This document shows, in pieces, positions 6,650-52,035 of a DNA stretch of 58,368 nt. The stretch is from Desulfobacterium sp. GTDB taxonomy: Bacteria; Desulfobacterota; Desulfobacteria; Desulfobacterales; Desulfobacteraceae. How positions within the stretch are numbered: position 1 is the first letter of the stretch; each line of letters starts with the position of its first letter. The notes under the pieces are model-generated. The model did not search any database. It was not told where the DNA came from and saw nothing but the letters and a program-made list of their open reading frames with translations. The translations under genes were made by a program, and so were the position numbers. Location: positions 1 to 58,368 of the forward strand of contig JAEINR010000028.1 of NCBI GenBank assembly GCA_016342325.1. Reading direction: 5' to 3'.

Positions 6650-6677
6650 GTGACTGTTACCCGCCATGGGCCGTGAT

Positions 6678-7967: not shown

Positions 7968-7977
7968 CAATGCTTCC

Positions 7978-9531: not shown

Positions 9532-9546
9532 TTTTTCTCTCCTAAA

Positions 9547-9618
9547 CTGGACAAGCCAGAACCAAAAAAAATCTAATCGTCTTGCTCAAATAACACGAAA
9601 ATCAGTGCTAAAAGGCTG
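9547..9618 (+). repeat. Dispersed ~70-bp repeat family 1, copy A
   Basis: This spacer copy begins CTGGACAAGCCAGAACCAAA and ends near AATCAGTGCTAAAAGGCTG. It matches copies at 10399-10470 (opposite strand) and 26119-26189 at most positions, plus a shortened copy at 32530-32547. The family has an internal CTGATT...AATCAG inverted repeat; here the left arm is mutated to CTAATC. It lies between tpiA and glpA. Confidence 0.75.
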
Positions 9619-9620
9619 TT

Positions 9621-10367
9621 TTAGAAATCCATGAGTCCAAGAAAATTTTCCGGATCAAGGCTTGCTCCGCCCACAAGGGCACCGTCAATGTCTGATTCAG
9701 CCATAAGGGTCTTAACGTTGGCGGGTTTGACACTGCCACCGTATTGAATGCGAACGGCTTCGGAAACCGTTGTGCCGTAGAGGGCGCCGACGCTTTCCCG
9801 GATAAAGGAGATGACCGTATTGGCATCTTCGCTGGTGGATGTCTTTCCCGTGCCAATGGCCCAGATGGGTTCATAGGCGATCACAACGGTTTTGACCGTT
9901 TCGGCCGGGATGCCTTCAAGGCCTGCTAAAACCTGGCTTTTGACCCGCTCTTTTGTTTTGCCGGCCTCCCTCTCTTCAAGGGTTTCGCCACAGCACATGA
10001 TCGGGGTGATGCCCGATGCCAGGGCCTTGGCGACTTTTCGGTTGACACTCTGATCGGTCTCGTTGAAGTATTCCCGTCTTTCCGAGTGACCGATGATGGC
10101 ATAATCGATCTTGAGATCGGATAACATGCCAGCGGATAGTTCGCCGGTAAATGCACCGTCTTCTTCCTGGTGCATGTTCTGGGCGCCGATTTTTATGTTT
10201 GTTCCCCGGGTGGCCTTTTTCAGGTGGTCAAGCATGATGGCAGGCGGGCAGATGACAACTTCAACATCGGTTCCCGCGATTTTCTCTTTTATCTCATTGA
10301 CAAAGTTGATCCCCTGGTCAATGGTTTTGTTCATTTTCCAGTTTCCGGCGATAATGGGTTTTCTCAT
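9621..10367 (-). CDS. tpiA: Triosephosphate isomerase
   Basis: Interconverts DHAP and glyceraldehyde 3-phosphate. In 248 aa the TIM-barrel active site is intact: GNWKMNK with Asn9 and Lys11, IGHSERR with His94, [12 protein letters not shown] with Glu166, and the phosphate-binding YGGSVKPAN and VGGASL. A good AGAGGAT site precedes the ATG. Its position between glpK and glpAB is functionally apt, because it turns the DHAP made by GlpAB into the substrate of the gapA product encoded upstream on the same strand. It is flanked on both sides by copies of dispersed repeat family 1. Confidence 0.96.
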
Positions 10368-10398
10368 TTCATCCTCTTGATTTGTGGGGTGGCTTTTC

Positions 10399-10470
10399 GC
10401 TTCTTGGCTCTGATTTTCGTGTTATTTCGGCAAGAGAATCAGAATTTTTTTTGGTTCCGGCTTGTCCAGG
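10399..10470 (-). repeat. Dispersed ~70-bp repeat family 1, copy B
   Basis: Read on the - strand this copy begins CCTGGACAAGCCGGAACCAA, contains CTGATTCTCTTGCC, and ends AATCAGAGCCAAGAAGC. It is the best-conserved copy and lies in opposite orientation to copies A and C. It sits in the 270-bp spacer between glpK and tpiA, so it would be transcribed as part of any glp message. Confidence 0.78.
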
Positions 10471-10637
10471 TCAGGCGGACCACGATTGATGAATCCGGGA
10501 TCGGCCGTTTCCAGGCCATGGGTAGATGCTGCAACAAACTTAAAAAAAATAATGGCTGACGGCTGAAGAATTCAAAAACTTCAGCCGCCAGGCCGGGTAT
10601 TCAGCTCACTCCATGGGAGTAAACTGTCATGGCTCGT

Positions 10638-12170
<1,533 letters not shown>

Positions 12171-36308: not shown

Positions 36309-36668
36309 ATGGGTGCGACAACTGTCCTGTTGGTGGATGATGAGAAGGAGTTCGTGGATACCTTGGCTGAACGGATCAGCATTCGAAGTCTGTGTCCCCA
36401 TGTGGCCTACAGCGGTGAACAGGCCCTGGAGATGATCGATGCCACGGTTCCCGACGTTATGGTGTTGGACCTGAAAATGCCGGGCATGGGCGGTACCGAC
36501 GTCCTTGCCAGGGTCAAGGTCTCACACCCTGAAATCAGCATCATCATCCTCACCGGCCACGGCGACGCCAAGGACCGGATCCTTGTCGAGGGTATGGGCG
36601 CGTCGGGGTATTTCCAGAAACCGGTTGACATCGACCGACTCGTTGCCAAGATCCAGGCCCTTGTCTGA
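36309..36668 (+). CDS. Single-domain response regulator (receiver only)
   Basis: A 119-aa CheY-like receiver with no output domain. The acidic pair is Asp10-Asp11, phospho-acceptor Asp54 in VLDLKMPG, switch Thr82 in ILTGHG and Lys104 in FQKPVD. Its helix 1 LLVDDEKEFVDTLAERI is nearly shared with three other receivers in this island (40.4, 42.8 and 44.0 kb), so they form one paralogous set. Such receivers act as phosphorelay intermediates or bind partner proteins. It is separated from the following TetR operon by a promoter/operator region. Confidence 0.92.
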   Translation: MGATTVLLVDDEKEFVDTLAERISIRSLCPHVAYSGEQALEMIDATVPDVMVLDLKMPGMGGTDVLARVKVSHPEISIIILTGHGDAKDRILVEGMGASGYFQKPVDIDRLVAKIQALV

Positions 36669-36741
36669 CCCCCTTCTTTTTGTAAAGAATTCCCCCTGAA
36701 AAATAATGGTTTTTTTTAACGGTGGGCAAGGATAATTTTTG

Positions 36742-36770
36742 TTGACCCTTTTGGATTTTGTTGATAAAAA
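36742..36770 (+). promoter_or_regulatory. Candidate promoter of the TetR-SulP operon
   Basis: TTGACC (36742-36747) and TAAAAA (36765-36770) at 17-bp spacing lie directly upstream of two inverted repeats. Confidence 0.4.
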
Positions 36771-36777
36771 AAAACTG

Positions 36778-36814
36778 ACTGACCAATCAGTAGTGTTGAC
36801 TGATTGAATAGTCA
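36778..36814. promoter_or_regulatory. Two inverted repeats, likely TetR autoregulatory operators
   Basis: ACTGA-CCAA-TCAGT (36778-36791) and TGACT-N8-AGTCA (36797-36814) overlap the expected transcription start before the TetR gene. The TGACTGA core occurs in both, typical of a TetR-dimer operator. Confidence 0.6.
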
Positions 36815-36852
36815 GTACCGGAAGCGGTTGGGTCTAAAATTCAAACGGAGCG

Positions 36853-37440
36853 ATGATGTCCAAGAAAGACGATATTTTAAAGTCGGCAATAACCCTCTTT
36901 GCCGACAGGGGATTCCAAGACGCTTCCATGACCGAAGTGGCCAAGATGGCCGGCGTTTCCGGCGCCACCGTGTTTTATCATTTCAAGAGCAAGGAGGCGC
37001 TGTTCCTCATCGCCCTTGAGACCGTCAAAGACGGCATCATTAAGGAGTTTGACCACTACCTTTCTGAACACGATTTTGAGTCGGGAATCGAACTTGCGGA
37101 AGGGATCATCTCTTTCTACCTCTATCTGGCCGGAACCATGGAAGAGTGGTTTCTGCTCCTCCACAGCCATTACCCCTACAAGCTTGCCCTGGTCAATAAA
37201 GAGTGCCGCAGTCACCTTGAAAAAATTTACAACAGCCTGGTGGACATTTTTGAACGGGCCGTTGCCCTGGGCCGGGAGGACGGCTCCATTAATGCTGGGG
37301 ATACCAGAAAAACAGCTCTGGTTATTTTTTCCATGGTGGATGGTGTGGTTCGTTTCAAGATTTACAACCTCTACGATACGGGTGCCCTGTTTAATGAACT
37401 TATCAATTCATGCAGGAAGATCCTAAAATATAAAACGTAA
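36853..37440 (+). CDS. TetR-family regulator
   Basis: This 195-aa protein has an N-terminal helix-turn-helix (about 7-52; ILKSAITLFADRGFQDASMTEVAKMAGVSGATVFYHFKSKEAL split across it) and an all-helical ligand domain. GGAG precedes a double ATG; the second (36856) gives better spacing. It starts an operon with the SulP permease 26 bases downstream, and inverted repeats overlap its promoter, so it probably represses itself and sulP. Ligand unknown. Confidence 0.9.
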   Translation: MMSKKDDILKSAITLFADRGFQDASMTEVAKMAGVSGATVFYHFKSKEALFLIALETVKDGIIKEFDHYLSEHDFESGIELAEGIISFYLYLAGTMEEWFLLLHSHYPYKLALVNKECRSHLEKIYNSLVDIFERAVALGREDGSINAGDTRKTALVIFSMVDGVVRFKIYNLYDTGALFNELINSCRKILKYKT

Positions 37441-37466
37441 AATAACCTTAACAATTAGGTGGTTAA

Positions 37467-39593
37467 ATGCTAACAAAATTTTTTCCGTTTCTTCTATGGT
37501 TCAAGGACTATGGCGTTGACAAGTTCAGGATCGATTTTTTGGCGGGGCTGACAGTGGCCCTGGTGCTTATCCCCCAATCCATGGCCTATGCACAGCTGGC
37601 CGGGATGCCTTCCTATTTCGGCCTTTACGCCTCTTTTCTCCCCCCCATGATCGCAGCGCTGTTCGGTTCCAGCCGCCAGCTTGCAACCGGCCCTGTGGCC
37701 GTGGTCTCCCTCATGACCGCAGCGAGTCTTGAACCCCTGGCAACGGCCGGCAGCGAAGGCTTTATCGCCTATGCCATTGTTCTTGCCTTGATGGTGGGTG
37801 TGTTCCAGCTTTCCCTGGGTATCTTGAAACTCGGGGTCGTGGTTAACTTTCTCTCCCATCCGGTCGTCAACGGTTTTACCAACGCGGCCGCCATCATCAT
37901 CGCATCCTCCCAGCTTTCCAAGATGTTCGGCGTCTATGTGGACAAGTCCGCCCACCACTACGAAACCATCATCAACGTGTGTAAGGCGGCTGTTCACTAT
38001 ACCCACTGGCCTACGCTGTTCATGGGCGTCCTCGCTTTTGCCATCATGTACGGGCTCAAGAAGGTGATGCCCAAGGTTCCCAACGTCCTTGTGGCCGTTG
38101 CCGTGACCATTGTTCTCTCCTGGGCCATGGGGTTTGAGCACAACACCCGGGTGGATCTCTCTGCCATCGACTCCCCTGAGGTTCGTGCCCAGATCGAGTT
38201 CTTCAATGGCATCAATGCAAATATCCCCGTGCTTTCGGACCAAAGAACGGCCCAATCCGATGGCGTGGACGAGGCCAAGAAAGCCAATGATACCATCCTG
38301 GAGCTGGATGCGGTCCATGACTTCAATGTCACGGCTGTTAAACTGGAGCGCCTGAAGCACGAGGCCCACATCCAGCGGGAACAGTTGAGGGCCCATCTCT
38401 TTTCCGGGATCGAGCAGGCGGACGGCTCCTTGAAATTGTACCTCCAGGGCCAGGAGCCCCAGGGCGTTGAAACCGACGGCAGGACCTGGCGCATCAAGGT
38501 GGGCAACCGGCTGCTGGATACCACCAATCTCTTGATAATGGGCGGCGGCGCTGTCGTCAGCACCGTTCCCAAGGGACTTCCGTCACTCAGCATTCCAAAG
38601 TTCGATATGAAGATTATTCTCCGTCTGCTTCCCTTTGCCGCCATCATCTCCCTGCTGGGTTTCATGGAGGCCATCTCCATTGCCAAGGCCATGGCTGCAA
38701 AGACGGGCCAGCGTCTTGATCCCAACCAGGAGCTCATCGGTCAGGGGCTTGCCAACATCCTTGGTGCCGTTGGAAAGAGTTATCCCACATCGGGCTCTTT
38801 TTCACGGTCGGCGGTTAACCTCCAGGCTGGCGCCGTCACCGGGCTTTCCAGTGTGTTTACCAGTCTTGCCGTTGTTGTGGTGCTTCTCTTTTTTACGCCC
38901 CTTCTCTACCATCTGCCCCAGAGTGTGCTGGCCGCTGTCATCATGATGGCCGTTATCGGGCTTGTTAATGTGTCCGGTTTCATCCATGCCTGGAAAGCCC
39001 AGTGGTATGACGGCGCCATTTCCATCATCACCTTTCTGTGCACCCTGGCCTTTGCTCCCCATCTTGACAAGGGGATCATGGTGGGTGTCGCTTTGTCCTT
39101 GGCGGTCTTTCTTTACAAGAGCATGCGTCCCAAGGTGCCTTCCCTGTCGCGGTTTGACGACGATGCCCTGCGCTGTTCCGTGACCCACGGACTCCAGGAG
39201 TGCGAGTATGTGGATCTTGTCCGTTTTGAAGGCCCCCTGTTTTTTGCCAATGCAAGCTATCTTGAGGACCAGATCAACGAGCGGATGACGAACAAGAAAA
39301 AATTAAGGGATATTATTATTGTCTCCAACGCCATCAACGACATCGATGCATCGGGTGAAGAGTTGCTCTCCCTTTTGATCGATAATGTCAGGAGTGCCGG
39401 CGTGGATATCTCGTTTTCCGGGGTCAACGAGTCTGTGACAAAGGTGTTTGAAAGAACCCATCTCATCGAGAAGATCGGAAGGGATCACATCTATACAACC
39501 ATGGAACAGGCCATATGCGCGGTCCACGAACATGCCCACCAGGATGATCCGGATCACCAGTGCCCACTTTCAACCACCTGCAAACTGGTATAA
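37467..39593 (+). CDS. SulP-family anion permease with STAS domain and a large insertion
   Basis: A 708-aa SLC26/SulP transporter: the membrane domain begins FLAGLTVALVLIPQSMAYAQLAGMP, has GPVAVVSLM, and ends in a cytoplasmic STAS domain (about 575-700) with the DIDASGEELL loop. Usual SulP proteins are 550-600 aa; the excess is a ~130-aa polar, partly coiled-coil insertion at about 229-365 between membrane helices, just before GLPSLSIPKFD. Substrate is probably sulfate, bicarbonate or another small anion. It is co-transcribed with the TetR gene before and the kinase-like/receiver fusion 21 bases after it. Confidence 0.87.
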   Translation: MLTKFFPFLLWFKDYGVDKFRIDFLAGLTVALVLIPQSMAYAQLAGMPSYFGLYASFLPPMIAALFGSSRQLATGPVAVVSLMTAASLEPLATAGSEGFIAYAIVLALMVGVFQLSLGILKLGVVVNFLSHPVVNGFTNAAAIIIASSQLSKMFGVYVDKSAHHYETIINVCKAAVHYTHWPTLFMGVLAFAIMYGLKKVMPKVPNVLVAVAVTIVLSWAMGFEHNTRVDLSAIDSPEVRAQIEFFNGINANIPVLSDQRTAQSDGVDEAKKANDTILELDAVHDFNVTAVKLERLKHEAHIQREQLRAHLFSGIEQADGSLKLYLQGQEPQGVETDGRTWRIKVGNRLLDTTNLLIMGGGAVVSTVPKGLPSLSIPKFDMKIILRLLPFAAIISLLGFMEAISIAKAMAAKTGQRLDPNQELIGQGLANILGAVGKSYPTSGSFSRSAVNLQAGAVTGLSSVFTSLAVVVVLLFFTPLLYHLPQSVLAAVIMMAVIGLVNVSGFIHAWKAQWYDGAISIITFLCTLAFAPHLDKGIMVGVALSLAVFLYKSMRPKVPSLSRFDDDALRCSVTHGLQECEYVDLVRFEGPLFFANASYLEDQINERMTNKKKLRDIIIVSNAINDIDASGEELLSLLIDNVRSAGVDISFSGVNESVTKVFERTHLIEKIGRDHIYTTMEQAICAVHEHAHQDDPDHQCPLSTTCKLV

Positions 39594-39614
39594 TTTTAAG
39601 ATAAGGGAGTTATC

Positions 39615-40829
39615 ATGTCTGTCATAACACTATTTAGCGGCAGTTTTTGTAATAATGAGAACGTCGAGGCAGCTCTTGTCAAGACAACGGGTGCCCAGCT
39701 GGTCACAGAACAGGAGATCGTGGAAAAAGCCAGCAGCATCTCCTCCATCAGCGCAACAAAGATCAAGGAGGCGTTTCTCGAAAAAACGTCGATTTTTAAT
39801 AAATTTACCCATGAAAAAGAGCGCTCCATTGCCTATCTGCGCCTGGCCCTGGCTGAGATGCTTGCCCAGGATAACCTTGTCATCACAGGGTTTCCCGCTC
39901 ATTTGATTCCCGTCAGTCTCAGCCATGTCCTGCGGGTCTGCCTCATTGCCGATCTCAAACACCGGCTGGGACAGGCGGCTGCACTTGGCACCGGGGAAAA
40001 AGAAGCCCTCAAGCTGATCAATGGGAGTGACAAGGATAGTTCAAACTGGGTCAGCACCCTTGTTGGCAACAACGATCCCTGGAACAAGGCGCTCTACGAC
40101 ATTGTCGTTCCCATGAACGCAACCTCTGTTGAGGAGGCGGTCGCCCTTATCAGCGAAAAATCACAAAGCCCTGCCGTTGCCTCTTCCGACGCCTCGGCCC
40201 AGGCGGTCAAGGATTTTCTCCTGGCTGCAAGGGTTGAAACGACCCTGGCCGATGAGGGGCACAATGTTGCTGTGGCTGCAAAAGAGGGAAAGGTGGTACT
40301 GACCATCAACAAGAACGTGTTGATGCTCAAGCGCCTGGAGGAGGATCTCCAGTCCATTGTCCACAAGATCGAAGGGGTTAAGGCGGTGGAGACCCAGATC
40401 GGTAAAGGGTTTTACCAGACCGACATCTACCGGCAGTTTGATTTCGAGACGCCTTCAAAGGTGCTGCTGGTGGATGATGAGCGGGAATTTGTCCAGACCC
40501 TGTCTGAACGGTTGATGATGCGGGAGATGAGTTCGGCCGTTGCCTATGACGGCGAGTCCGCCCTCAGCATCGTGGACGAGGATGAGCCCGAGGTGATGAT
40601 CCTGGATCTTAAGATGCCCGGCATCGACGGCATCGAGGTGTTGAAAAAGGTCAAGGCCACCAAGCCCGAGATCGAGGTGATCATCCTCACCGGCCACGGC
40701 AGCGAGGCGGACAAGAAGGTCTGCATGGATCTGGGGGCGTTTGCCTATCTCCAGAAGCCGGTTGATATCGATCTGTTGAGCAAGACACTCAAGCTTGCCA
40801 ATGATAAGATAAAGAAACAGGGTGCTTAG
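39615..40829 (+). CDS. Fusion: cytidylate-kinase-like domain, BON-like domain, receiver
   Basis: A 404-aa protein of unusual design. Residues of about 1-180 resemble the cytidylate-kinase-like family (GAQLVTEQEIVEKAS; ALYDIVVPMNATSVEEAVALI) but the P-loop is degenerate (GSFCNNENV). Residues 195-265 look BON-like (VVLTINKNVLMLKRLEEDLQSIVHKIEGVKAVETQIG spread over it). Residues 282-400 are a receiver with Asp331 in LDLKMPGIDG, switch Thr and Lys intact, closely related to the 36309 receiver. It follows the SulP gene with GGGAG upstream. A phosphorylation-controlled nucleotide- or ligand-binding partner of the permease is an inference; no characterised homologue comes to mind. Confidence 0.75.
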   Translation: MSVITLFSGSFCNNENVEAALVKTTGAQLVTEQEIVEKASSISSISATKIKEAFLEKTSIFNKFTHEKERSIAYLRLALAEMLAQDNLVITGFPAHLIPVSLSHVLRVCLIADLKHRLGQAAALGTGEKEALKLINGSDKDSSNWVSTLVGNNDPWNKALYDIVVPMNATSVEEAVALISEKSQSPAVASSDASAQAVKDFLLAARVETTLADEGHNVAVAAKEGKVVLTINKNVLMLKRLEEDLQSIVHKIEGVKAVETQIGKGFYQTDIYRQFDFETPSKVLLVDDEREFVQTLSERLMMREMSSAVAYDGESALSIVDEDEPEVMILDLKMPGIDGIEVLKKVKATKPEIEVIILTGHGSEADKKVCMDLGAFAYLQKPVDIDLLSKTLKLANDKIKKQGA

Positions 40830-40913
40830 GACCGCAGATGAAATAAGGTGAACAGAAATAGCGCCGCAATTTCGTTTAGCTTATAAAATTTGCGGTGCTT
40901 AAATACCCGGCGG

Positions 40914-40950
40914 GGCCGGAGCATGGTATTTGTGCTCCGGCCACAACGAA
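40914..40950 (-). repeat. Palindromic repeat family 2, copy 2
   Basis: GGCCGGAGCA (40914-40923) and TGCTCCGGCC (40933-40942) form a perfect 10-bp stem around TGGTATTTG. The element matches 25097-25136 in opposite orientation, including the flanking CACAACGAAAAA. It lies in the 250-base spacer after the CMK/BON/REC gene. Confidence 0.7.
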
Positions 40951-41008
40951 AAATGGGTCGAAGACGCGGAGTCAACGTCACTGATACCGCAGCTTTAGCC
41001 AGCGTTTC

Positions 41009-41027
41009 ATATAAACGCTGAAATAAG
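41009..41027. repeat. Short inverted repeat AGCGTTT/AAACGCT
   Basis: A 7-bp stem around CATAT lies just upstream of the kinase gene. A related GTTTCATATAAAAC occurs before the first Usp gene near 54366. It may be a weak hairpin or protein site. Confidence 0.35.
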
Positions 41028-41078
41028 ATGATCAAGGGGAGTCGGGGCGTCAATCGTTATCTGGAAACAGGGGGTAGC

Positions 41079-42830
41079 ATGTCCATTGTTGAAAAATTGA
41101 AGCCGGTCTTTTTGGAATATCCGGCCACGGGAGAGGGGCGGTACAAGTATACCTTTAATTACCGTAAAATATGGCAGATGGTGATTATGCTCACTGCCGC
41201 CGTTACCCTGATTCCCCTGATTATCATCACTTGCATCGACTATAATGTGACCCAGCGGTCCATTGAGTCGGAGATCTCCCTCAGGGCCAGGCGGACCGCC
41301 TCCAACACCAAGCGGGCCATTTCGTTTTTTCTTTCCGAACGCAAAGCGGCCCTGGATTTCATCATCCATGATAACGCGCGCAAGGCCTTGACCGATATGG
41401 ATCGGTTGTCAACCATCCTCAAGAACCTCCAGGCCGGGTTCGGCGGGTTTATGGACATTGGCGTGATCAATGATCACGGCATCCAGGTCGCCTATTCAGG
41501 TACCCACAACCTCGGGGGAAAGGATTACTCGGACCAGGCCTGGTTCAACAAGGTGGTGGCCCGGGGTGTTTACATCAGCGAGGTGTTCCTGGGGTTCAGA
41601 AATAAGCCCCACCTGGTGATTGCGGTGAAGTCCCAGCTGGATCAAGGTGCTTTTTATGTGCTCCGGGCCACCATCGACACGGACCAGTTCAATGAGATCC
41701 TTTCGAGTCTTGAGCTGAACGGCAAGGGGGACGTGTTTCTCATCAACCGTAATCAGGTGATCCAGACACCCAGTCGCCACCATGGGGATGTGCTTTCCTT
41801 GGTTGACATCCCGGTGCCGGAATATTCGGACCGGACCCGGGTGAAGGTGTTCCAGGATCAGAAAATGGAGCAGTATGTGGTGGGGTATGCCTATATCCCG
41901 GACACGGATTTCATCCTGATGATCGTCAAGCAAAAGGCCGCCCTGATGAAGTCATGGTATGCGACCCGGTCCAATCTCATCGGGTTCCTTTTGATCAGCA
42001 TCACCGTGATTCTCGGGGTGATCGTCTTTGTTACCACCTACCTTGTCAACCAGATGTTTTTTTCAGACAGGAAGCGGGCCAAGGCCATGCACCGGATCGA
42101 GTATGACAACAAGCTTGCAACCGTGGGAAGACTTGCCGCAGGCGTTGCCCACGAGATCAACAATCCCCTTGCCATCATCAATGAAAAGGCCGGGCTGATC
42201 AAGGACATCTTTGTCTTTCGGGAGAAGTATTCGGCCGACGACAAGCTCATGGGCCTTGTGGATTCGGTGATCTCCTCGGTGGCCCGGTGCGGGACCATCA
42301 CCAAGCGGCTGCTCAATTTTGCCCGGCACATGGACGAATCCTTCCAGGTCGTGGAGATCGGTACGGTGATCCGGGAGGTGCTGGGGTTCCTGGGCAAAGA
42401 GGCCGAGTACCGAAGCATCGAAATCTCGGTGGAGGTGCCCAATTCTTTTCCAAAGATCGAGTGCGACCGGGGAAAGCTCCAGCAGGTGCTGTTGAACATT
42501 GTGAACAACGCCTTTTTTGCCATCGAGTCCGAGGGCAAGCTCTCCATCCAGGTGAAGCAGCGGGATGAGAAGTACCTGACCGTTACCATCTCTGACTCGG
42601 GGTGCGGTATTCCGGAAAAAGAGCTGGAACTCATCTTTGAGCCGTTCTTTACCAAGAAGTCGGATCAGGGCGGAACAGGCCTGGGCCTTTCCATCACCTA
42701 CCAGTTGGTAGAGGAGGCGGGTGGCTGCATCAAGGTCAAGAGCGAAGTCGGTGTGGGAACAAGTTTTATTGTGAACCTGCCGTTTAAACCCAAACCAAGA
42801 AAGGAGGCAAACACGTGCGAGTCCTTTTAG
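41079..42830 (+). CDS. dCache sensor histidine kinase
   Basis: This 583-aa membrane kinase has membrane segments at about 33-52 and 300-322, an extracellular double-Cache domain between them (about 60-290; DYSDQAWFNKVVARGVYISEVFLG and similar), a HisKA helix pair with VAHEINNPLAIINEKAG and His358, and an intact ATPase domain (N-box VNNAFFAIE, SDSGCGIPEKE, FFTKKSDQGGTGLGLS). The start at 41079 follows GGGGG; an in-frame ATG at 41028 lacks a ribosome site. Its last codons overlap the receiver gene that follows, so the two are a cognate pair. Confidence 0.92.
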   Translation: MSIVEKLKPVFLEYPATGEGRYKYTFNYRKIWQMVIMLTAAVTLIPLIIITCIDYNVTQRSIESEISLRARRTASNTKRAISFFLSERKAALDFIIHDNARKALTDMDRLSTILKNLQAGFGGFMDIGVINDHGIQVAYSGTHNLGGKDYSDQAWFNKVVARGVYISEVFLGFRNKPHLVIAVKSQLDQGAFYVLRATIDTDQFNEILSSLELNGKGDVFLINRNQVIQTPSRHHGDVLSLVDIPVPEYSDRTRVKVFQDQKMEQYVVGYAYIPDTDFILMIVKQKAALMKSWYATRSNLIGFLLISITVILGVIVFVTTYLVNQMFFSDRKRAKAMHRIEYDNKLATVGRLAAGVAHEINNPLAIINEKAGLIKDIFVFREKYSADDKLMGLVDSVISSVARCGTITKRLLNFARHMDESFQVVEIGTVIREVLGFLGKEAEYRSIEISVEVPNSFPKIECDRGKLQQVLLNIVNNAFFAIESEGKLSIQVKQRDEKYLTVTISDSGCGIPEKELELIFEPFFTKKSDQGGTGLGLSITYQLVEEAGGCIKVKSEVGVGTSFIVNLPFKPKPRKEANTCESF

Positions 42831-43177
42831 TTGACGATGAAGTGGAATATGTCTCAACCCTGGCTGAACGGCTTTCCTTCAGGGGGATCGATGCGATTTG
42901 GGTGTCCAGTGCAATGGATGCCCTGGAGCGCATCCGGCAGGAACGCTTTGACATCGCCGTGCTGGATGTGAAGATGCCAAAGATGGGGGGGATTGAGCTG
43001 AAACAGATCATCGAAAAGATCCACCCGGACATGAAATTTATTTATCTCACGGGCCACGGATCGGAGCACGACTATCAAAAAGGGGTGACGGACGGGGTCT
43101 CCTACCTGATCAAACCCGTTAATCTTGATAAGTTGATGAGCACCATGAACCAAGCCATGATAAACGGGGGAAGTTGA
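42815..43177 (+). CDS. Single-domain response regulator, GTG start
   Basis: A 120-aa receiver with acidic pair near Asp7-Asp8, VLDVKMPKMGG phospho-acceptor, YLTGHG switch and IKPVN lysine. It starts with GTG at 42815 behind a perfect AAGGAGG that lies inside the kinase gene, overlapping it by 16 bases, and ends three bases before the next start. Its helix 1 resembles the other receivers in this island. It is probably the direct phosphate acceptor of the kinase before it. Confidence 0.92.
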   Translation: MRVLLVDDEVEYVSTLAERLSFRGIDAIWVSSAMDALERIRQERFDIAVLDVKMPKMGGIELKQIIEKIHPDMKFIYLTGHGSEHDYQKGVTDGVSYLIKPVNLDKLMSTMNQAMINGGS

Positions 43178-43179
43178 CA

Positions 43180-43836
43180 ATGAAGATGGAAACAGAGGCG
43201 CCGACAGATATTGGACTGCGCTATTTTGGAAAGATGACGGCCGCCATCAGCCATGAGCTCAAAAACTCACTGGCCATCATCAATGAAAACGCAGGCTTGA
43301 TGGAAGATCTGAGCCTGATGGCAAAGCGGGGTCAACAACTGGATCCCCAGCGGGTCGAGGACCTCTCCGGCCGGGTGATCAAGCAGGTCCAGCGGGCGGA
43401 TACCATCGTTAAAAAAATGAACCGGCTGGCCCACAGCGTGGATGATCCCATAAAAGAGATCGATGTGGCTGACCTTCTGGCCTTTACCATGGAACTTGGG
43501 AAGAAATCGGTCTCCTCCCTGGGGGTGGATCTCCAGATGACACCGCCTGAAAGCCCTGTGCGAATTAACGCCAATCCGTTTCTGGTGATGAACCTCTTCT
43601 GGGAGGTCATGGGGTATGCCTGTACCCGGGTCAACGGGGCACCCTGCATCACGATTTCCATTGTTCGGAACGCCGGCGGGGTTGAACTTGTTTTTGCGCC
43701 TGTCAGCGATGCCGGGCATGACGGGTTTTCATTTGATCAGGCGCCTTTTAGTGGGCTTGCGTCCTGTTTGAAAGCAGAAATATTAGCCCTTGCCGACAGG
43801 AAGGCACTTGTGTTAACACTTCCTGAAACAGTGTAA
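43180..43836 (+). CDS. Histidine-kinase-like protein with degenerate ATPase domain (ChpT-like?)
   Basis: The 218-aa product keeps a DHp helix pair with ISHELKNSLAIINENAGL and the phosphorylatable histidine (His25), clearly related to the preceding kinase, but the rest lacks the N, G1, F and G2 boxes of an ATP-binding domain (the N-box position reads NLFWEVMGYA). It cannot be an ordinary kinase. Architecture resembles histidine phosphotransferases such as ChpT, which evolved from kinases. I start at ATG 43180 behind GGGGGAAG, three bases after the receiver stop. A phosphorelay kinase-receiver-phosphotransferase-receiver within this locus is a reasonable inference. Confidence 0.75.
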   Translation: MKMETEAPTDIGLRYFGKMTAAISHELKNSLAIINENAGLMEDLSLMAKRGQQLDPQRVEDLSGRVIKQVQRADTIVKKMNRLAHSVDDPIKEIDVADLLAFTMELGKKSVSSLGVDLQMTPPESPVRINANPFLVMNLFWEVMGYACTRVNGAPCITISIVRNAGGVELVFAPVSDAGHDGFSFDQAPFSGLASCLKAEILALADRKALVLTLPETV

Positions 43837-43887
43837 AAAGTGTAATATGAAATTGATGTATGCAGTAATCGATGTTTTCGAAACCCC

Positions 43888-43915
43888 TTATTGTCATACG
43901 GAACCAAGTTATAAT
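43888..43915 (+). promoter_or_regulatory. Candidate promoter before the 43955 receiver
   Basis: A perfect TATAAT (43910-43915) with a poor -35 TTATTG at 16 bp stands about 40 bases before the ATG, suggesting this receiver has its own promoter. Confidence 0.35.
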
Positions 43916-43954
43916 CACTATAGCTTCTAATATAAATATGAAAGGAGAATTGCC

Positions 43955-44383
43955 ATGTCTGAGAAAATATTATTAGTTGATGATGAAAAAGAGTTTCTGG
44001 AAGCCATGTCCGAGAGAATGACCAACCGGGGTATGGACGTGACAACAGCACTCTCCGCAAAAGAGGCCATTGAAAAGGTCAAGCACGAGAACTTTGACGC
44101 CATCATCGTTGATCTGCTCATGCCTGAGATGGACGGGCTTGAGGCCCTTGAGACCTTTAAAAAAATTAACGCAGACCTTCAGGTCATCCTGTTGACCGGC
44201 AATGCCACGGTTGAAAAGGGGATCGAGGCCATGAAACTCGGGGCCATGGATCTGTTGGAAAAACCGGCCGATCTCAATAATCTTACAGAGCGGATCAAAA
44301 AAGCCAAGGCCCGCAAGATGATCCTCGTTGAAAAACACACTGAAGAGAAGATCAAGAAGATCATCAGTTCCAAGGGGTGGTAG
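43955..44383 (+). CDS. Single-domain response regulator with C-terminal helical tail
   Basis: A 142-aa receiver: LLVDDEKEFLEAMSERM, VDLLMPEMDG phospho-acceptor, LLTGNA switch and EKPAD lysine, followed by a ~25-residue basic helical tail (AKARKMILVEKHTEEKIKKII). It has a strong AAGGAG ribosome site and probably its own promoter. It is the fourth member of the paralogous receiver set. No DNA-binding domain is present. Confidence 0.92.
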   Translation: MSEKILLVDDEKEFLEAMSERMTNRGMDVTTALSAKEAIEKVKHENFDAIIVDLLMPEMDGLEALETFKKINADLQVILLTGNATVEKGIEAMKLGAMDLLEKPADLNNLTERIKKAKARKMILVEKHTEEKIKKIISSKGW

Positions 44384-44391
44384 CGATTGGC

Positions 44392-45627
44392 CTAAAGCCT
44401 GTAAACCGTTGGGATTTCATCCTTGTTGATGAAAATTCCAACGGTGTCCCCGGTGCTGAACCCAAGTTCTTTGAACCGGGTGGTAAAGGCTTCATGCTTG
44501 TCCCCGTGCCAAAACACATTCCACATGGGGTTTCTCACCGTATCGATCCCATAGGCATCGTGGCTGCAGAGGTTGACCCTGAACCGGTCCTTTGCGATCA
44601 GGGTGTCGGCCTCGGATAGAAAAAAGTCGATCTGGTAGAGGTTGTTGTTGAGTTCCCTGGCGAGTGCCTTCTGGAGTTCGGGAAAATCGTCCAGGTAGTG
44701 GTTGGCAATCTGGTAGAGCTCCTCAGGCTCTTTGATGGACATGCCCAGGATGGCAAACCGCTCGTTTCGCATGGCAAAGGTTTCAAGTTCCGCCTGGAAC
44801 GTGCGGATCACTCCGATGGCTTTTTCAAGGCCCTTTTTCGGCTCAATCCCCCCCAGCACGATCATCTCACACTTGGCAATGATGTCGAGGTAGAGTGCCT
44901 TGGTGTTCATCACGTAGATGTTGCGTTCCCGGTAGCTTCTTCGTTTCCGTATCCGCTTGATGCCGTTGAGGCGTATGGAGATGATCCCCTTTTTTTGCTC
45001 AAGGATCTCGATGTTGGAGATGTCCTTTGCCTGGACCACAAAGATATCACCGGTTTCCGAGATGATGTACTCGATCTCGCAGGGAAATCCTAGAAGTTCC
45101 TGTATCTCCCTGGAGACGGCCATCAACTTTCTGTCATGGGGGGTCTTGGTGATATAGGGTTCGGACTGGACCCTGGATTTGCGATCCCGGCAGTAGCCGA
45201 ACTCCCAGTCCCCGGAGATCACTTTGGCCATGACGCTGGACCCTTCCACAAAGGGCATGACGATGATGCCCATCTCGTCAAGGTCTAGCCCGGGGGCGTT
45301 GAGGAACTTCTGCTGCCGCTTGATGGACAAGGCCTTGGTGGTCGTTCCCGAGCGGATGATCTTTGATCTGGCGTACTTGATCCCCATGATGTCGGCATAG
45401 GTCTCCATGGAGTCGAAGGTTCCGCCCTTGAAGCAGTATTCCATGGGGTGGGCGCTCCGTGCGATCACCTTGTAGTTTTCCTGGTGCCGGGAGAGAAAGC
45501 GTTTCAGGGGGTCGAAGCTGTCGTTGTTGAAATCCGCTGCCGAAACATAGATAAAGTCCGGAACGTTGAACCCCTCGTCCTTGAGCTGTGCCAGAAGTCG
45601 GGCCTTTTCCGGAAACGGCTTGTCCAT
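44392..45627 (-). CDS. Stand-alone PEP-synthase/PPDK N-terminal-type ATP-binding protein
   Basis: This 411-aa protein resembles only the ATP-grasp N-terminal domain of PEP synthase/pyruvate phosphate dikinase: ARSAHPMEYCFKGGTFDSMETY matches the family region around its first nucleotide loop, IIVMPFVEGSSVMAKVISGD the central strand, and CEIEYIISETGDIFVVQAKD the catalytic strand. The swivelling phosphohistidine domain and the PEP-binding barrel are absent, replaced by ~190 residues of unknown fold. It cannot make PEP alone. I start at ATG 45627 behind AAGGAG; upstream in-frame starts lack a ribosome site. An adenylate-sensing or regulatory phosphotransfer role is inference. Confidence 0.7.
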   Translation of the reverse strand: MDKPFPEKARLLAQLKDEGFNVPDFIYVSAADFNNDSFDPLKRFLSRHQENYKVIARSAHPMEYCFKGGTFDSMETYADIMGIKYARSKIIRSGTTTKALSIKRQQKFLNAPGLDLDEMGIIVMPFVEGSSVMAKVISGDWEFGYCRDRKSRVQSEPYITKTPHDRKLMAVSREIQELLGFPCEIEYIISETGDIFVVQAKDISNIEILEQKKGIISIRLNGIKRIRKRRSYRERNIYVMNTKALYLDIIAKCEMIVLGGIEPKKGLEKAIGVIRTFQAELETFAMRNERFAILGMSIKEPEELYQIANHYLDDFPELQKALARELNNNLYQIDFFLSEADTLIAKDRFRVNLCSHDAYGIDTVRNPMWNVFWHGDKHEAFTTRFKELGFSTGDTVGIFINKDEIPTVYRL

Positions 45628-45786
45628 GAACGACTCCTTGCTTTCTGTTTCTTCTCTTTTCATATCCATTTTCGCGATCAATGATGGTGGTTTATATCTA
45701 TCGATTTGTAAAATTTATGGATAGCACGATTTTCCTTGAATGTACATGGCTCTCCAATGGATTTGGACTTTTGGACGGATGAAACT

Positions 45787-45854: not shown

Positions 45855-47339
45855 TTACCCCAGGGTGATGGGCATTCCCATCAGGGGCCACAGCACATAG
45901 ACGGCAAACCCCGTAACAATCATGAGGATGATACTGGCCGGGATGCCGTAGAGAAAGAACTCTCCGGTGGTGAACTGCTTTGAGTCATAGGCGATGGCGT
46001 TGGGGGCCGCCCCCACAAGAAGCAGGAAGGGCATGCCAGCAACCACCAGGGAGGAGAAGAGGATGGCCTCTCCGGTTACGCCGAGGTAGGGGGCGATGAC
46101 CAGGGCCACGGGAAGGGAGATGGCAATGGCGGCAACGTTCATGATGAAGTTGGTCATCATCATGACAAAGAATGCGATGCTCATTACAAAGACGAACCAG
46201 TGGGACTCCTTGAAGATGGTGAGCCAGTTGATCGCCATCCACTCCGCAGCGCCAGTGTCCCAGAGGCAGAAACCGATGCTCATGGCGCCTGCAAAGAGCA
46301 GGATGATGTTCCAGGGAATTTCTTCCAGGTCGTCGATGTCAAGGATGCCGGTGACAAAAAAGAGAATGGTGGAGATGAGAATGACAGCCGTCTTGTGGGG
46401 CGGAACAAACCCGGGGATAAAGGCCTTGAGAATGGCAAAGGTGCCCAGGGCCAGGATGCAGGTGCCCACGATGGTTGCCGCAATGACCTCCTTTCGGGTG
46501 ATGCCGCCAAGCTCGATGTACAGGCGCTTTGCCTTTTCCTTGAGCCCGGGAATGGTTTTCTTTTCAGGCTTCATCACGATCATGAAGTAGGCCCACAGGA
46601 GAATCACCATGATCCAACCCACCGGAAGCATGTAGTAGGTGAGCTCGAAGAAGCCGATGTCCTTGTCCATGATATCTTTGAAAAAGCCGATGGCAACAGC
46701 ACCCCGGGCAGCCCCCAGCAGGGTGACGATGGAGCCGGCACCTGCCACGTAGGCCATGCCCATGAAGAGCCCTTTTCCGAATTTTGTCTGCTTGTCTCCT
46801 TCGCCGTATAGGGAGTAGATGGCCACAAGCAGGGGATAGATGGTGGCGGCAACGGCGGTGTGGGCCATGATGTGGGAAAGGGCTGCGGTAACAACAAAGC
46901 AGCCCAGATAGATCATGCTGGTTCTTTCCCCGACAATGGAGAGCATCTTATAGGCCAGGCGCTTGGTGAGCCCCGTCTTGGTAAACACCAGCCCGATGAC
47001 GATGGAGCCAAAGATGAACATGACAGACGGATCCATGAAATCCTTGAACGCCACCTTGGCCGGCCGGATGAGGAACAACGCCTGCATCACGCCGATGGCA
47101 AGACTTGTCACGCCGATGGGAACCACCTCAAACACCCACCAGGTGCCGGCCATGAGAAATACGGCGATGGCGCCTTTGCCTGCCTTGGACAGGGCAAAGT
47201 GTTTGCCCATGGGATCGATGGCATCGGGCCACATGGGGGAAAAATAGACAATTACAAAAAGTCCTACACCTGCAAGCAGGGCAATTATTTTTGGCCAGTT
47301 TACACTGGTTGCTTCACTTACTTCTACTTCAACGGCCAT
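45855..47339 (-). CDS. DASS-family (SLC13/CitT-like) anion symporter
   Basis: A 494-aa membrane protein with about 11-12 helices; WWVFEVVPIGVTSLAIGVMQALFLI, IFGSIVIGLVFTKTGLTKRLA and near the end VGAAPNAIAYDSKQFTTGEF mark the divalent-anion:Na symporter family (the second SNT-like Na/substrate motif reads APNAIAY). It takes up di- or tricarboxylates, or possibly sulfate, using sodium. AGGAGG precedes the ATG and a strong terminator follows. It lies downstream of the CBS-pair gene on the same strand (57-base gap), so CBS control of this transporter is plausible. Confidence 0.9.
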   Translation of the reverse strand: MAVEVEVSEATSVNWPKIIALLAGVGLFVIVYFSPMWPDAIDPMGKHFALSKAGKGAIAVFLMAGTWWVFEVVPIGVTSLAIGVMQALFLIRPAKVAFKDFMDPSVMFIFGSIVIGLVFTKTGLTKRLAYKMLSIVGERTSMIYLGCFVVTAALSHIMAHTAVAATIYPLLVAIYSLYGEGDKQTKFGKGLFMGMAYVAGAGSIVTLLGAARGAVAIGFFKDIMDKDIGFFELTYYMLPVGWIMVILLWAYFMIVMKPEKKTIPGLKEKAKRLYIELGGITRKEVIAATIVGTCILALGTFAILKAFIPGFVPPHKTAVILISTILFFVTGILDIDDLEEIPWNIILLFAGAMSIGFCLWDTGAAEWMAINWLTIFKESHWFVFVMSIAFFVMMMTNFIMNVAAIAISLPVALVIAPYLGVTGEAILFSSLVVAGMPFLLLVGAAPNAIAYDSKQFTTGEFFLYGIPASIILMIVTGFAVYVLWPLMGMPITLG

Positions 47340-47396: not shown

Positions 47397-47963
47397 CTAT
47401 TCACCCGCATCCGTTGGGCACTGCTCAATTATTTTGGAAAACGCATCAAATACATCGGTTAAGCGAAGCACTCCCGTGACGGTGCCGTCCTTCAGGACAA
47501 GCAGGGATTGGTGGTGTCCAAGGACCATCTGGTGGATCGCTTCATCCAGGTTGGCAGTCTCTTCGATGAACTCACCATCCGTGGGGGTTTCCATGAAGCT
47601 TGATACCGGGATGGAGGCCCCTTTCCGACAGATATTTTGAAGGGGGGTGTCCCAGAGGTGATGGTGGGTCAACAACGATTTCATGAATTTTCTTGAGAAA
47701 CCGTATTTGGCAAGGCCGGTTCTGTCGTGCATCTCCTGGTATTTGGGTTCCAGGGCTTTCAGAACATCCAGTTGGCTCACCTTACCCACCACCTGGTTGT
47801 CTTTGTCCAGAATGATCACCGCCCTGTGGGGGTATTGGGAATTGCTAAATTCCTTCTGGGCTTTCTTAAGGGCTTGCACTGCATCGTATAACGACGCATC
47901 TTCGGTCACTGTCGCATATTTCGACAACGAGACCATCAGATCCTTAACTGTATTGGTTTTCAA
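47397..47963 (-). CDS. CBS-domain pair protein, TTG start
   Basis: A 188-aa protein made of two CBS motifs (about 8-75 with VVGKVSQLDVLKAL, and 115-180 with VTGVLRLTDVFDAF), a module that binds AMP/ATP-type ligands. No further domain. It starts with TTG: AGGAGG stands eight bases upstream, and the resulting N-terminus aligns with its paralogue at 48387 (VKDLMVSLSKYAT versus VKDFMVPLSDYAT). It precedes the DASS transporter on the same strand and is divergent from the paralogue, implying duplication. Confidence 0.85.
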   Translation of the reverse strand: MKTNTVKDLMVSLSKYATVTEDASLYDAVQALKKAQKEFSNSQYPHRAVIILDKDNQVVGKVSQLDVLKALEPKYQEMHDRTGLAKYGFSRKFMKSLLTHHHLWDTPLQNICRKGASIPVSSFMETPTDGEFIEETANLDEAIHQMVLGHHQSLLVLKDGTVTGVLRLTDVFDAFSKIIEQCPTDAGE

Positions 47964-48960: not shown

Positions 48961-50382
48961 ATGAAAGAGATTGAAAAACTTTTCGATAGGATTGTCCAGC
49001 GGGTAAATATAAATCTTCGGGAGCTTGAGTACGATGTCAATCCCTATGTGAATAAGCTTATTCCCTTCAACCAGATGGTGAAGTTCTACGGGTTCTACGG
49101 GGTTTCTCCCCATCATCCCTTGAGCTTTGAATTCAAGAACTCAAATCTTGCCGGCAGCTATTTCCTTGGCCGGTGCCGGGTGAGTAATTCCCTGCTCTAC
49201 AAGAGCGATATCCGGGGGGATGAGCTCAAGAAGGAGAAGGATCTGTTCCAATACCAGGATTTTGAGATTCCGGTGGTGGACGACGAAGAGATCCATATTG
49301 AGGACAGCTTTCTCATCAAGACCCTGGTCCATAATTTTTCCCACGATCCCGAGACCCTGGAGCGGTTCTTCATCAAGGACACCATCTCCATGAACTATGC
49401 AAACATCCACGGCGCACCGTCGGACGGATGTTTTCTCGGGGTCTTTTCCACGGTGGACCTGACCACCATGCGGGACTGCGTCATTGGCAATTTTTCCTAT
49501 GTCCAGGCCGGGGAGATCAACCATCTCCACATTCCACCGGGAACCGTGTGGGTCCGGAACCCCGGGGAGTTTAATTTTTACTACCAGTATCCCGAGAATA
49601 TGTTGAACGACTATGTCTTTCTTCCTGCAGGTTCCCCGCCCCAGGGAATGCTCATCGATTTTGTCGAGGACCGGAAAGAGGCGTTCCAGCGGATTTTTGA
49701 TGTGGTAAATATCGAGCAGTCCGTGGATGTTCCCTCCAGTGCGTCCCTTGACCGCTACTCCGTGACAAAGGGCCATACCACCATCGGAGAAAATGTCCTG
49801 GTGGCCCAGCGGGCCTATCTCCAGAACGCCTGGCTCGGTAAGGGGGCCAATGTCCAGGAAAACTGCTTTATCATCAACTCCAGGCTCGAAGGAAATGATG
49901 TAACGGCCCATGGTGCAAAGATCATAGAGGCTGATGTGGGTACCATGGTGTTTGTCGGGTTTAACAGCTTTTTACGGGGCCGTCCGGACAGCCGGATTGT
50001 CATTGGCGAGGACAGTATCGTCATGCCCCACACCATCATTGATGTCAAAGAACCCTTGACCATTCCCCCCGGCCACCTGGTGTGGGGACTGATCCAGGAT
50101 GAGACGGATCTTGCGACCAACTCCATCTCCATTGAGCGGCTCAAAACCATCGATTCAAAGCTGACCGTGGGCAACATGTTCTTTGAAGGAAACGGCGCAG
50201 GGTTTGTGGCGGCGTTCCAGGAGCGGATCCACCATATCCTCGACGCCAACGGTGCCTTCTTTAACGGTGCCGAGCATAAGGGCCATGCCCAGAAAAACCA
50301 GTTCATCTCTTTCAATACCATCCAGCCCTATCCCGAGGGCAACAAAAAAGGGATGTTCCCGACCATTGTGATCCAACCCTAG
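48961..50382 (+). CDS. Left-handed beta-helix (hexapeptide-repeat) protein
   Basis: A 473-aa protein I cannot assign to a characterised enzyme. Residues of about 270-400 show hexapeptide-like periodicity (TTIGENVLVAQRAYLQNAWLG, NVQENCFIINSRL, DSIVMPHTIIDVKEPLTIPPGHLVWG), the left-handed beta-helix of acyl/nucleotidyl transferases; a second repeat set is in the N-terminal half (NLAGSYFLGRCRV, SYVQAGEINHLHIPPG). There is no signal peptide. It is co-transcribed with the CBS-pair gene and ends in a strong terminator. Acyl transfer or ligand binding controlled by the CBS partner is only a guess. Confidence 0.7.
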   Translation: MKEIEKLFDRIVQRVNINLRELEYDVNPYVNKLIPFNQMVKFYGFYGVSPHHPLSFEFKNSNLAGSYFLGRCRVSNSLLYKSDIRGDELKKEKDLFQYQDFEIPVVDDEEIHIEDSFLIKTLVHNFSHDPETLERFFIKDTISMNYANIHGAPSDGCFLGVFSTVDLTTMRDCVIGNFSYVQAGEINHLHIPPGTVWVRNPGEFNFYYQYPENMLNDYVFLPAGSPPQGMLIDFVEDRKEAFQRIFDVVNIEQSVDVPSSASLDRYSVTKGHTTIGENVLVAQRAYLQNAWLGKGANVQENCFIINSRLEGNDVTAHGAKIIEADVGTMVFVGFNSFLRGRPDSRIVIGEDSIVMPHTIIDVKEPLTIPPGHLVWGLIQDETDLATNSISIERLKTIDSKLTVGNMFFEGNGAGFVAAFQERIHHILDANGAFFNGAEHKGHAQKNQFISFNTIQPYPEGNKKGMFPTIVIQP

Positions 50383-50544: not shown

Positions 50545-52035
50545 ATGATACATTATTTCAGTCTCAGATCGAAAATTGTCTATATCTTTTCCGCCATGGC
50601 AGGGATCGCCCTTGCCGGCGGCATCGGCCTTCTCTGGTATTCCTACGAGATTGATACGATGTTGGTGACCATGGTGGAAAAGGAGGTGGTGCTTTATAAA
50701 ACGGCCCAGGACATGGAGCTTGCCCTTGCCAACCAGAAGGGGTTTTTGACCTACTACTTTGTGGATGGCCAGGCCAAGTGGCTCAAGTCCCTGGGTCGGT
50801 ACAGGGAGGTGTTCCGCCAGAGCCTCAACCGGGCCTTTTCCCTGAATCTGAACGATGAACAGCGAAGGACCCTGGGCCTGATTGCCGCCGAGTATGCCAC
50901 CTATGTGGAGACCAAGGATAATGTCATAGAGAAGTACAGCCGGGGTGATGTTCAGCAGCACATCTCCCTTCTCCACGAAAAGCAGCGGGGGGTGTTCTTC
51001 AATCTCCTGGATCTGTGCCGCAGGTTCAGCCTTGACCAGTGGGACGTGATCCAGGAGACCGAGGCGAAAAACAATGCGCGCTCCACCATCCTGAGAATGG
51101 TGGCCCTGGGTGCCATTGCCGTATTCGTGGCGCTCTGCGGCCTGCTTTTGTTTGTTCTCTACCGGCAGATTCTGATCCCCATCCGGGGGCTCGCCATTGA
51201 GACCGGCAGTTCCCCCAAGGAGAGCTCCCGGGACGAGGTACTCTCCCTGAGTCAGTCCCTCAAGGGGATGATGAAGGACTTTGACGACACCCATGATGCC
51301 CTGGCAAAAAGCCGGCAGCATCTTGTCCAGGCCGAGCGCATGGTGATGGTGGGGGAGATGGCCGCAGGGGTTGCCCACACCATACGGAACCCGTTCACCT
51401 CCATCAAGATGCGGATGTTCTCCTTGAGCCGATCCCTGGATCTGACCGATGTCCAGAACGAGGACCTCCAGGTGATCGCCGACGAGATCGGGCGCATCGA
51501 CAAGATCGTGCAGAATTTCCTCGAGTTTGCAAGGCCCCCAAAACTGAAACTTACCCGGTGCAGCCTCCGAAACGTCATCCGTTCCGTGATCACCCTTTTG
51601 GAGTACCGGCTCAAGGAGTACAATGTGGAACTTGTGTACCGGCCTGATCCCGGGCTATCTGAGATCATGGCGGATTCGGACAGGATCAAGGAGGCCCTGG
51701 TCAATCTCGTCTCCAATGCCTGTGAAGCCATGGACACGGGCGGAGAGATCATTATCTCGGAAACCCGGACCCTTGAGCCCGGCATCGGGGAAGTGGCGGT
51801 TCTCTCCATTGCCGACAACGGGACCGGCATTCCTGATGCCATTGTTCACAAGATCACCAATCCCTTTTTCACCACCAAGGAGGATGGGTCCGGCCTGGGG
51901 CTGAGCATCGTTGCCAGGATCGTCCGGGAGCATGACGGCGTGTTTTCCGTGTCTTCCGACAGGGCACAGGGGGCTGAATTCATCATTAAATTGCCAGCGA
52001 AGGAGCTAGTTCATGGGTCTGATACTGATCATTGA
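50545..52035 (+). CDS. NtrB-type membrane sensor histidine kinase
   Basis: A 496-aa kinase with membrane segments at about 12-31 and 184-206, a helical extracellular sensor of the four-helix-bundle kind between them, a linker, HisKA with AAGVAHTIRNPFTSIKMRM and His278, and an intact ATPase domain (NLVSNACEAMD, IADNGTGIPDA, NPFFTTKEDGSGLGLSI). The His-Thr-Ile-Arg-Asn-Pro motif is typical of NtrB-like kinases that work with sigma-54 activators. It overlaps the regulator gene by 23 bases. Confidence 0.92.
   Translation: MIHYFSLRSKIVYIFSAMAGIALAGGIGLLWYSYEIDTMLVTMVEKEVVLYKTAQDMELALANQKGFLTYYFVDGQAKWLKSLGRYREVFRQSLNRAFSLNLNDEQRRTLGLIAAEYATYVETKDNVIEKYSRGDVQQHISLLHEKQRGVFFNLLDLCRRFSLDQWDVIQETEAKNNARSTILRMVALGAIAVFVALCGLLLFVLYRQILIPIRGLAIETGSSPKESSRDEVLSLSQSLKGMMKDFDDTHDALAKSRQHLVQAERMVMVGEMAAGVAHTIRNPFTSIKMRMFSLSRSLDLTDVQNEDLQVIADEIGRIDKIVQNFLEFARPPKLKLTRCSLRNVIRSVITLLEYRLKEYNVELVYRPDPGLSEIMADSDRIKEALVNLVSNACEAMDTGGEIIISETRTLEPGIGEVAVLSIADNGTGIPDAIVHKITNPFFTTKEDGSGLGLSIVARIVREHDGVFSVSSDRAQGAEFIIKLPAKELVHGSDTDH

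Follow-up and report, generated by a model that had tools for sequence, protein, structure and literature searches.

In Desulfobacteraceae, a SulP cluster that includes TetR and two-component proteins, and a DASS cluster, have been described (PMC11887813), and the model proposed there for Desulfosarcina variabilis is PhoRB-like, with promoter-binding regulators and with external sulfate as the proposed ligand of the kinase. Here we analyze a block of eight genes at positions 36309-44383 of a 58,368-nucleotide stretch of Desulfobacterium sp. (the window), which is one contig of a 6.67-Mb genome in which dsrA is also present. According to that description, the published clusters resemble this locus in combining SulP, TetR and a palindromic operator, in a cache-domain kinase and response regulators, and in CBS proteins at the DASS cluster; they differ in their WalR-type promoter regulators, whereas the four receivers of the block carry no DNA-binding domain. 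We suggest that the block probably encodes a phosphorelay of the Spo0F/Spo0B kind, dedicated to a sulfate permease and controlling it by protein contact.

The output of the Spo0F-Spo0B relay is the transcription factor Spo0A. In Bacillus subtilis this relay is likewise built from a kinase, a single-domain receiver and a dimeric phosphotransfer protein thought to be derived from a kinase (PMC5898713), but it ends on transcription, and the candidate phosphotransfer protein described here has HisKA as its only credible Pfam match. ChpT (PMC3433190) and PhyT (PMC5898713) are also histidine phosphotransferases of kinase-like build with an altered or degenerate ATPase half; they differ in serving CtrA and PhyR as outputs, and PhyT, which has an HRxxN motif, is anchored in the membrane. 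SulP/SLC26 permeases in general end in a STAS domain that is thought to regulate them via protein contact (PMC5840216), whereas here a relay is encoded with the permease and, in relatives, a receiver is fused behind STAS. What would be new, and can be tested, is the permease as the end point of a phosphorelay; the parts are ordinary and the cluster is already in print.

Results

An original prediction, made from the letters of the window, had placed a TetR-SulP pair, a dCache kinase, four receivers and an ATPase-dead histidine protein in the block, and all of these were found. They lie on the + strand in the following order, in which RRa, RRb and RRc are single-domain receivers, Cyt-REC is a fused one and HPt stands for histidine phosphotransfer.

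36309-36668, + strand: RRa, single-domain receiver (Response_reg, E 7.6e-25)
36853-37440, + strand: TetR-family repressor (TetR_N, E 1.6e-15)
37467-39593, + strand: SulP permease with C-terminal STAS (Sulfate_transp, E 8.5e-102; STAS, E 2.6e-14; TIGR00815, 431.8 bits, cut-off 380.45)
39615-40829, + strand: Cyt-REC, a Cytidylate_kin2-like domain without Walker A, a BON-like linker and a receiver
41079-42830, + strand: dCache sensor histidine kinase (HisKA, HATPase_c), alternative start 41028
42815-43177, + strand: RRb, single-domain receiver (Response_reg, E 1.8e-20)
43174-43836, + strand: HPt-like protein, HisKA with invariant His and a degenerate ATPase half
43955-44383, + strand: RRc, single-domain receiver with a C-terminal tail (Response_reg, E 1.1e-28)

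Gaps of 26 and 21 nucleotides separate TetR from SulP and SulP from Cyt-REC, and the kinase gene overlaps RRb by 16 nucleotides and RRb the HPt gene by 4. The kinase start at 41079, as predicted, fits the alignment better than 41028, since at residues 3-13 of the longer form 87-94% of the 39 kinases aligned have a gap.

The block is conserved through much of the phylum. The Cyt domain and linker of Cyt-REC, searched at E up to 1e-3, find a match in 46 of 58 relatives, a count that takes in weaker paralogues. Of 395 genomes that sample the phylum evenly, 56 match the Cyt query at E up to 1e-30, their best matches lying in fused-length frames (at least 359 amino acids) in 50 and in stand-alone proteins in 6, as counted by eye. 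Gene content was then counted on the same strand within 6.5 kb at 67 loci from 66 genomes (window excluded), hand-picked from the better matches; at 22 of these loci the flank on one side is shorter than 6.5 kb, and a further locus, L194, was dropped as no Cyt-REC gene was found there. A kinase is present in 58, HPt in 54, a single-domain receiver in at least 60 and TetR in 36, while SulP occurs in 48, DASS in 15 and one or the other in 59. The receiver count is a lower bound because a length filter hid RRb in a longer frame, and an apparent absence of single-domain receivers from genome G550 was ruled out on inspection of that frame. Restricting the count to the 45 loci with full flanks gives 41 with a kinase, 38 with HPt, 41 with a single-domain receiver, 32 with SulP, 12 with DASS, 40 with either transporter and 22 with TetR. 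The locus had been called an orphan, which these counts contradict; synteny, whose lack had been named beforehand as the result that would speak against a joint system, is widespread.

Five full-flank loci have neither SulP nor DASS in reach. At L161 a TauE/SafE transporter directly follows the block, at L084 and L195 an SLC13-TrkA_C protein stands beside it, and L087 has a weaker and more distant SLC13 match; no transporter was found near the block of L166. Judged by gene content, the relay is thus the constant part and the transporter the one that varies.

The receivers of the block share a distinctive first helix. Helix 1 is the receiver face that docks on the helical domain of a kinase. 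The predicted pattern, DDE.EF.{5}ER, is exact in RRa, RRc and Cyt-REC, and in RRb it holds with EY in place of EF. A receiver search of the same genome gave 152 matches, and 90 distinct receivers of at least 85 amino acids were examined, mostly from the better matches; DDE.E[FY].{5}ER fits 4 of the 90, precisely those of the block, and a looser pattern likewise finds just 4, which rules out the motif as a common trait of receivers in this genome. The 86 that do not match include the receiver of a sigma-54 regulator at 52013 in the window. In relatives, fused Cyt-REC receivers (n = 46) have the strict motif in 36 cases, a close variant in 5 and neither in 5, and for single-domain receivers within 7 kb (n = 74) the corresponding numbers are 31, 25 and 18. 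A midpoint-rooted tree of 268 receivers (183 from the related loci and the window, 85 others from the same genome) places the block's four and the SulP-fused receivers described below in one group of 168 with a support of 0.67, which holds none of the 85 others; 15 receivers from the related loci fall outside it, and RRa groups with Cyt-REC receivers (support 0.76 to 0.90). Because the motif is local and the tree groups them together, the receivers of the block would seem to have arisen by local duplication, with the docking face retained. By alignment, their phospho-acceptor pockets are intact, with the acceptor Asp present in 68/68 Cyt-REC, 50/50 RRb and 41/41 RRc sequences. As had been predicted, no DNA-binding domain was detected in the four receivers with Pfam at E up to 0.1, so that they have neither the DNA-binding output by which a PhoRB-type response regulator is recognized nor that of the WalR-type regulators of the published SulP cluster.

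The molecular basis for an action on the permease is suggested by proteins in which the two are joined. The SulP proteins of G093 (846 amino acids), G442 (845) and G550 (857) consist of Sulfate_transp, STAS and a receiver, an architecture confirmed by Pfam for G093 and by our own profiles for G442 and G550. All three fused receivers retain the acceptor Asp as well as the Thr and Lys, and they group with a Cyt-REC receiver (support 0.99), and their loci also carry Cyt-REC, the kinase, RRb and HPt, with RRc in two of the three. Such fusions occur in at least 3 of 146 genomes of the order, all in one family (f25), when up to 16 candidates per genome are scored. Receiver-CBS fusions adjoin DASS-type transporters both in the Desulfobacterium sp. 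genome (L096, 8226-9401) and at L087. Together, the SulP and CBS fusions argue that the receivers act on the transport apparatus by contact. The original prediction had proposed protein-protein control, perhaps of the permease, as the output, and it gains support from the synteny, the single receiver group and the SulP-STAS-receiver fusions. As a separate observation, L096 as a whole (1590-11305) comprises two divergent units of an SLC13 transporter, a dCache kinase and a receiver, one of which holds the receiver-CBS fusion.

To describe the HisKA-only protein at 43174-43836, residues were counted in 56 HPt sequences, that of the window included, and in 61 kinases from the same stretches (HPt rows were chosen by score, and L048 and L077, which are kinases, were left out of the HPt profile). 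The phospho-acceptor His is kept in 56/56. Of the ATP-box residues, N490 is left in 1 HPt sequence, N494 in 4, D523 in 0, G527 in 1 and G549, G551 and G553 in 1 each, whereas these are kept in 60 or 61 of the 61 kinases. The stretch after the His is common to HPt and kinase (N379 in 56, A382 in 53, G389 in 53, L390 in 55 and D393 in 53 of the 56). Apart from itself, the closest sequence to HPt in its own genome is the kinase encoded in that operon, at E 9.6e-11 against 2.8e-6 for the next match, and a PDB profile search matches it to kinase chains across both halves (3a0r, positions 7-174; 9jfj, 12-182 of 219). Pfam holds models named for Spo0B and for ChpT. Neither is among the 8 families matched by 12 HPt members at E up to 1, while HisKA is found in 11 of the 12 at that threshold and in 8 at 0.001. 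A plasmid search with HPt gave no match. A truncated gene or a frameshift is ruled out, as the same form recurs in 55 further sequences. Because of its invariant His, its lost ATP boxes and its closeness to the kinase of its own operon, the protein would look like a phosphotransfer protein that arose from a duplicated kinase core, resembling Spo0B, ChpT and PhyT in kind rather than by established membership in those families.

The fourth receiver proved to be more than a bare module. The count of four had been correct, but a domain of the protein at 39615-40829 had been overlooked: its residues 4-167 match Cytidylate_kin2 (PF13189, E 5e-12) ahead of the receiver at 283-392, and 12 of 12 aligned members match both families. 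The resemblance of the stretch between them to BON is weak, being seen in 3 of these 12 at E up to 0.1, and the receiver is the most conserved part. A Walker A expression matches 0 of 69 receiver-fused Cyt proteins; the stand-alone paralogue in the same genome (on another contig, C167) has GSYSMGKT, and among 13 stand-alone Cyt proteins in the loci studied, 2 fit the strict expression and 5 show GxxxxGK by eye. A PDB search with the Cyt domain gave no match. Because Walker A is lost, the fused domain is probably a pseudo-enzyme that serves for binding or contact. Stand-alone Cytidylate_kin2 genes adjoin an SLC13-TrkA_C transporter and receivers in this genome (L095, 5192-7905) and in relatives (L098, L099), for which reason the domain seems tied to anion transporters generally.

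A link to sulfate is visible in the distribution of the block. dsrA (E up to 1e-60) is found in 47 of the 50 genomes with fused-length Cyt-REC against 143 of 345 others (Fisher p 2e-13, with genomes taken as independent and species relatedness uncorrected), and counting all 56 Cyt matches, the 6 stand-alone ones included, gives 51/56 against 139/339 (p 3e-13). Five Cyt-positive genomes have no dsrA; an aprA match is present in four of them, over the cut-off in three, and G100 has neither gene. Inside the order dsrA carries no information, being present in nearly all relatives (57/58 match, 48 over the cut-off). In a second member of the genus (G002, locus L056) eight consecutive genes run DASS, PPDK-like, RRc, HPt, RRb, kinase, Cyt-REC and SulP, which by gene order would correspond to the D. 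autotrophicum tags HRM2_40290 to HRM2_40360. Section 24 of PMC5840216 gives the SulP HRM2_40360 and the DASS HRM2_40290 as highly expressed at 15 mM sulfate, and the paper describes a switch between low- and high-affinity sulfate uptake and suggests regulation at the molecular level. Its sections 16 and 24 give contrary sulfate responses for HRM2_40290 and HRM2_38300.

Further features lie within and beside the block:

36774-36791 and 36799-36816, 5' of the TetR gene: two tandem 18-bp palindromes, likely TetR operators (predicted)
44392-45681, - strand: 429-amino-acid conserved neighbour with weak PPDK_N similarity under the cut-off
45855-47339, - strand: DASS (SLC13) anion symporter (Na_sulph_symp, E 2e-39; dass, 190.4 bits, slightly under the cut-off of 198.6)
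47397-47963, - strand: CBS-domain protein adjoining DASS (CBS, E 4.3e-14)

Both palindromes match ACTGAYTGANNARTCAGT with zero mismatches, and at up to 2 mismatches the two sites, each found on both strands, account for all 4 hits of this sequence, where 0.09 would be expected. Similar palindromes, sought with an ad hoc pattern, lie 5' of 21 of 36 TetR genes in relatives, and the tandem arrangement before TetR agrees with a report of a palindromic operator of 16 bp at SulP clusters (PMC11887813). A promoter and terminator scan gave nothing above the level of shuffled sequence. At its position RRa was seen in this genus alone (G000, the genome studied here, G001 and G002; synteny in L055 and L056). 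The PPDK_N-like gene lies next to the block in both other genus members compared (G001 and G002), and DASS with the CBS gene also in G002, G001 having a different gene there instead; elsewhere the PPDK_N-like gene is divergent to TetR (L052, L075, L079, L080, L081, L082). A 473-amino-acid hexapeptide-repeat protein is encoded at 48961-50379, and its relatives recur in eight SulP/DASS stretches (L063, L076, L081, L083, L086, L089, L091, L092). The sigma-54 regulator at 52013 lies with a kinase at 50545-53443.

Discussion

The original prediction knew of no described system of this composition. That part has to be revised, as the SulP cluster is in PMC11887813 and the gene order fits the HRM2 SulP/DASS pair of PMC5840216. 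The main text of PMC11887813 has no hits for phosphorelay, cytidylate or receiver, and phosphotransfer occurs once, in a reference title. Among the papers listed, no other one describing this relay was found, judged by titles and abstract openings in a search that mostly left out subscription journals, and further searches of the same literature gave no match for a cytidylate kinase-like protein with a response regulator, nor for a single-domain response regulator with a transporter and SulP.

From what we infer of the direction and order of phosphotransfer, the ligand, the substrate of SulP in this strain and the sign of control, the periplasmic dCache domain of the kinase would sense a small molecule, perhaps sulfate, and phosphate would pass from the kinase to RRb, on to HPt and then to the output receivers, as in the Spo0F-Spo0B relay. 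Cyt-REC and RRc, plus RRa in this genus, would be the output receivers; most likely they would touch the cytoplasmic STAS side of SulP and set its activity, while TetR would separately set transcription of the TetR-SulP unit. A more specific version, a four-step phosphorelay ending at the transporter, in which receivers dock on or are fused to STAS and gate sulfate flux and the same relay is swapped among the unrelated transporter families SulP, DASS and TauE/SafE, we put forward tentatively, stopping a little short of calling it likely.

Several observations weigh against this picture. RRb is missing in five loci (L047, L075, L079, L081, L082), so the order of the relay is not universal, and among the 45 full-flank loci 4 have no such kinase and 7 no HPt on the same strand within 6.5 kb. 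L077 has the kinase and neither HPt nor single-domain receivers, and at L070 a receiver protein matching the sigma-54 regulator at 52013 comes after SulP and Cyt-REC, with no kinase or HPt nearby. Receiver-sigma-54 regulators directly precede SulP in L158, L160 and L163, and in several DASS-type blocks sigma-54 activators without a matched receiver precede the kinase, which means that a transcriptional arm exists at least at those loci. The SulP-receiver fusion is perhaps one event, since a single family has it, and G328, a member of that family, carries an ordinary SulP. The HPt proteins retain an ExxN motif (E376 in 50/56, N379 in 56/56) that would suit a phosphatase too, and section 16 of PMC5840216 gives HRM2_40290 the opposite response from section 24.

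The sigma-54 regulators adjoining SulP at L070, L158, L160 and L163, together with the regulator and kinase at 50545-53443 in the window, are what would be expected if a kinase acted on regulators at the promoters of the transporters and TetR supplied a further layer of control, as in the PhoRB-like model in print for Desulfosarcina variabilis (PMC11887813). The predicted TetR operators in the window fit this as well. We nevertheless think it unlikely for the block, since 0/4 of its receivers have a DNA-binding domain and 0/86 of the other receivers examined in this genome, that of 52013 included, share their helix-1 motif. About equally improbable, in our view, is a reading in which the HisKA-only protein would be a phosphatase dedicated to resetting the receivers, with no part in phosphotransfer, and the kinase would feed all four directly: the retained ExxN makes such a role possible, the sequence after the His is common to kinase and HPt, and some loci have HPt without RRb, but a pure phosphatase could dispense with the His that is invariant in 56/56, and the analogous PhyT was originally regarded as a phosphatase, yet in vitro it transferred phosphate and lacked phosphatase activity (PMC5898713).

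Extra receivers can also serve to dispose of phosphate, CheY1 of Sinorhizobium being a phosphate-sink receiver. Were that the case here, the additional receivers would merely drain the kinase and the output would come from Cyt-REC alone, for instance via its pseudo-enzyme domain; the motif common to all four receivers, the Cyt domain as the sole non-receiver output domain among them, and the loci with SulP and Cyt-REC alone (L070, and L071, which lies on a short contig and likewise has no kinase or HPt) are in keeping with this. The receivers fused to the permease in G093, G442 and G550 and the retention of HPt in 54/67 loci make it very unlikely. That receivers should be this numerous (152 matches) also invites the thought that those of the block serve kinases elsewhere and that the neighbourhood has no joint function, but phylum-wide synteny and a locus-specific motif render mere clustering extremely improbable. 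We favour a phosphorelay that acts on the permease.

Dissimilatory sulfate reduction begins with the uptake of sulfate. A relay encoded with the permease, together with receivers fused to it in some relatives, supplies concrete proteins and a testable post-translational route for the control of uptake, and such a relay does not fit the promoter-binding role given in print to the receivers of this cluster. If our reading is true, the signal would end at the sulfate uptake pump itself, and not at a gene switch.

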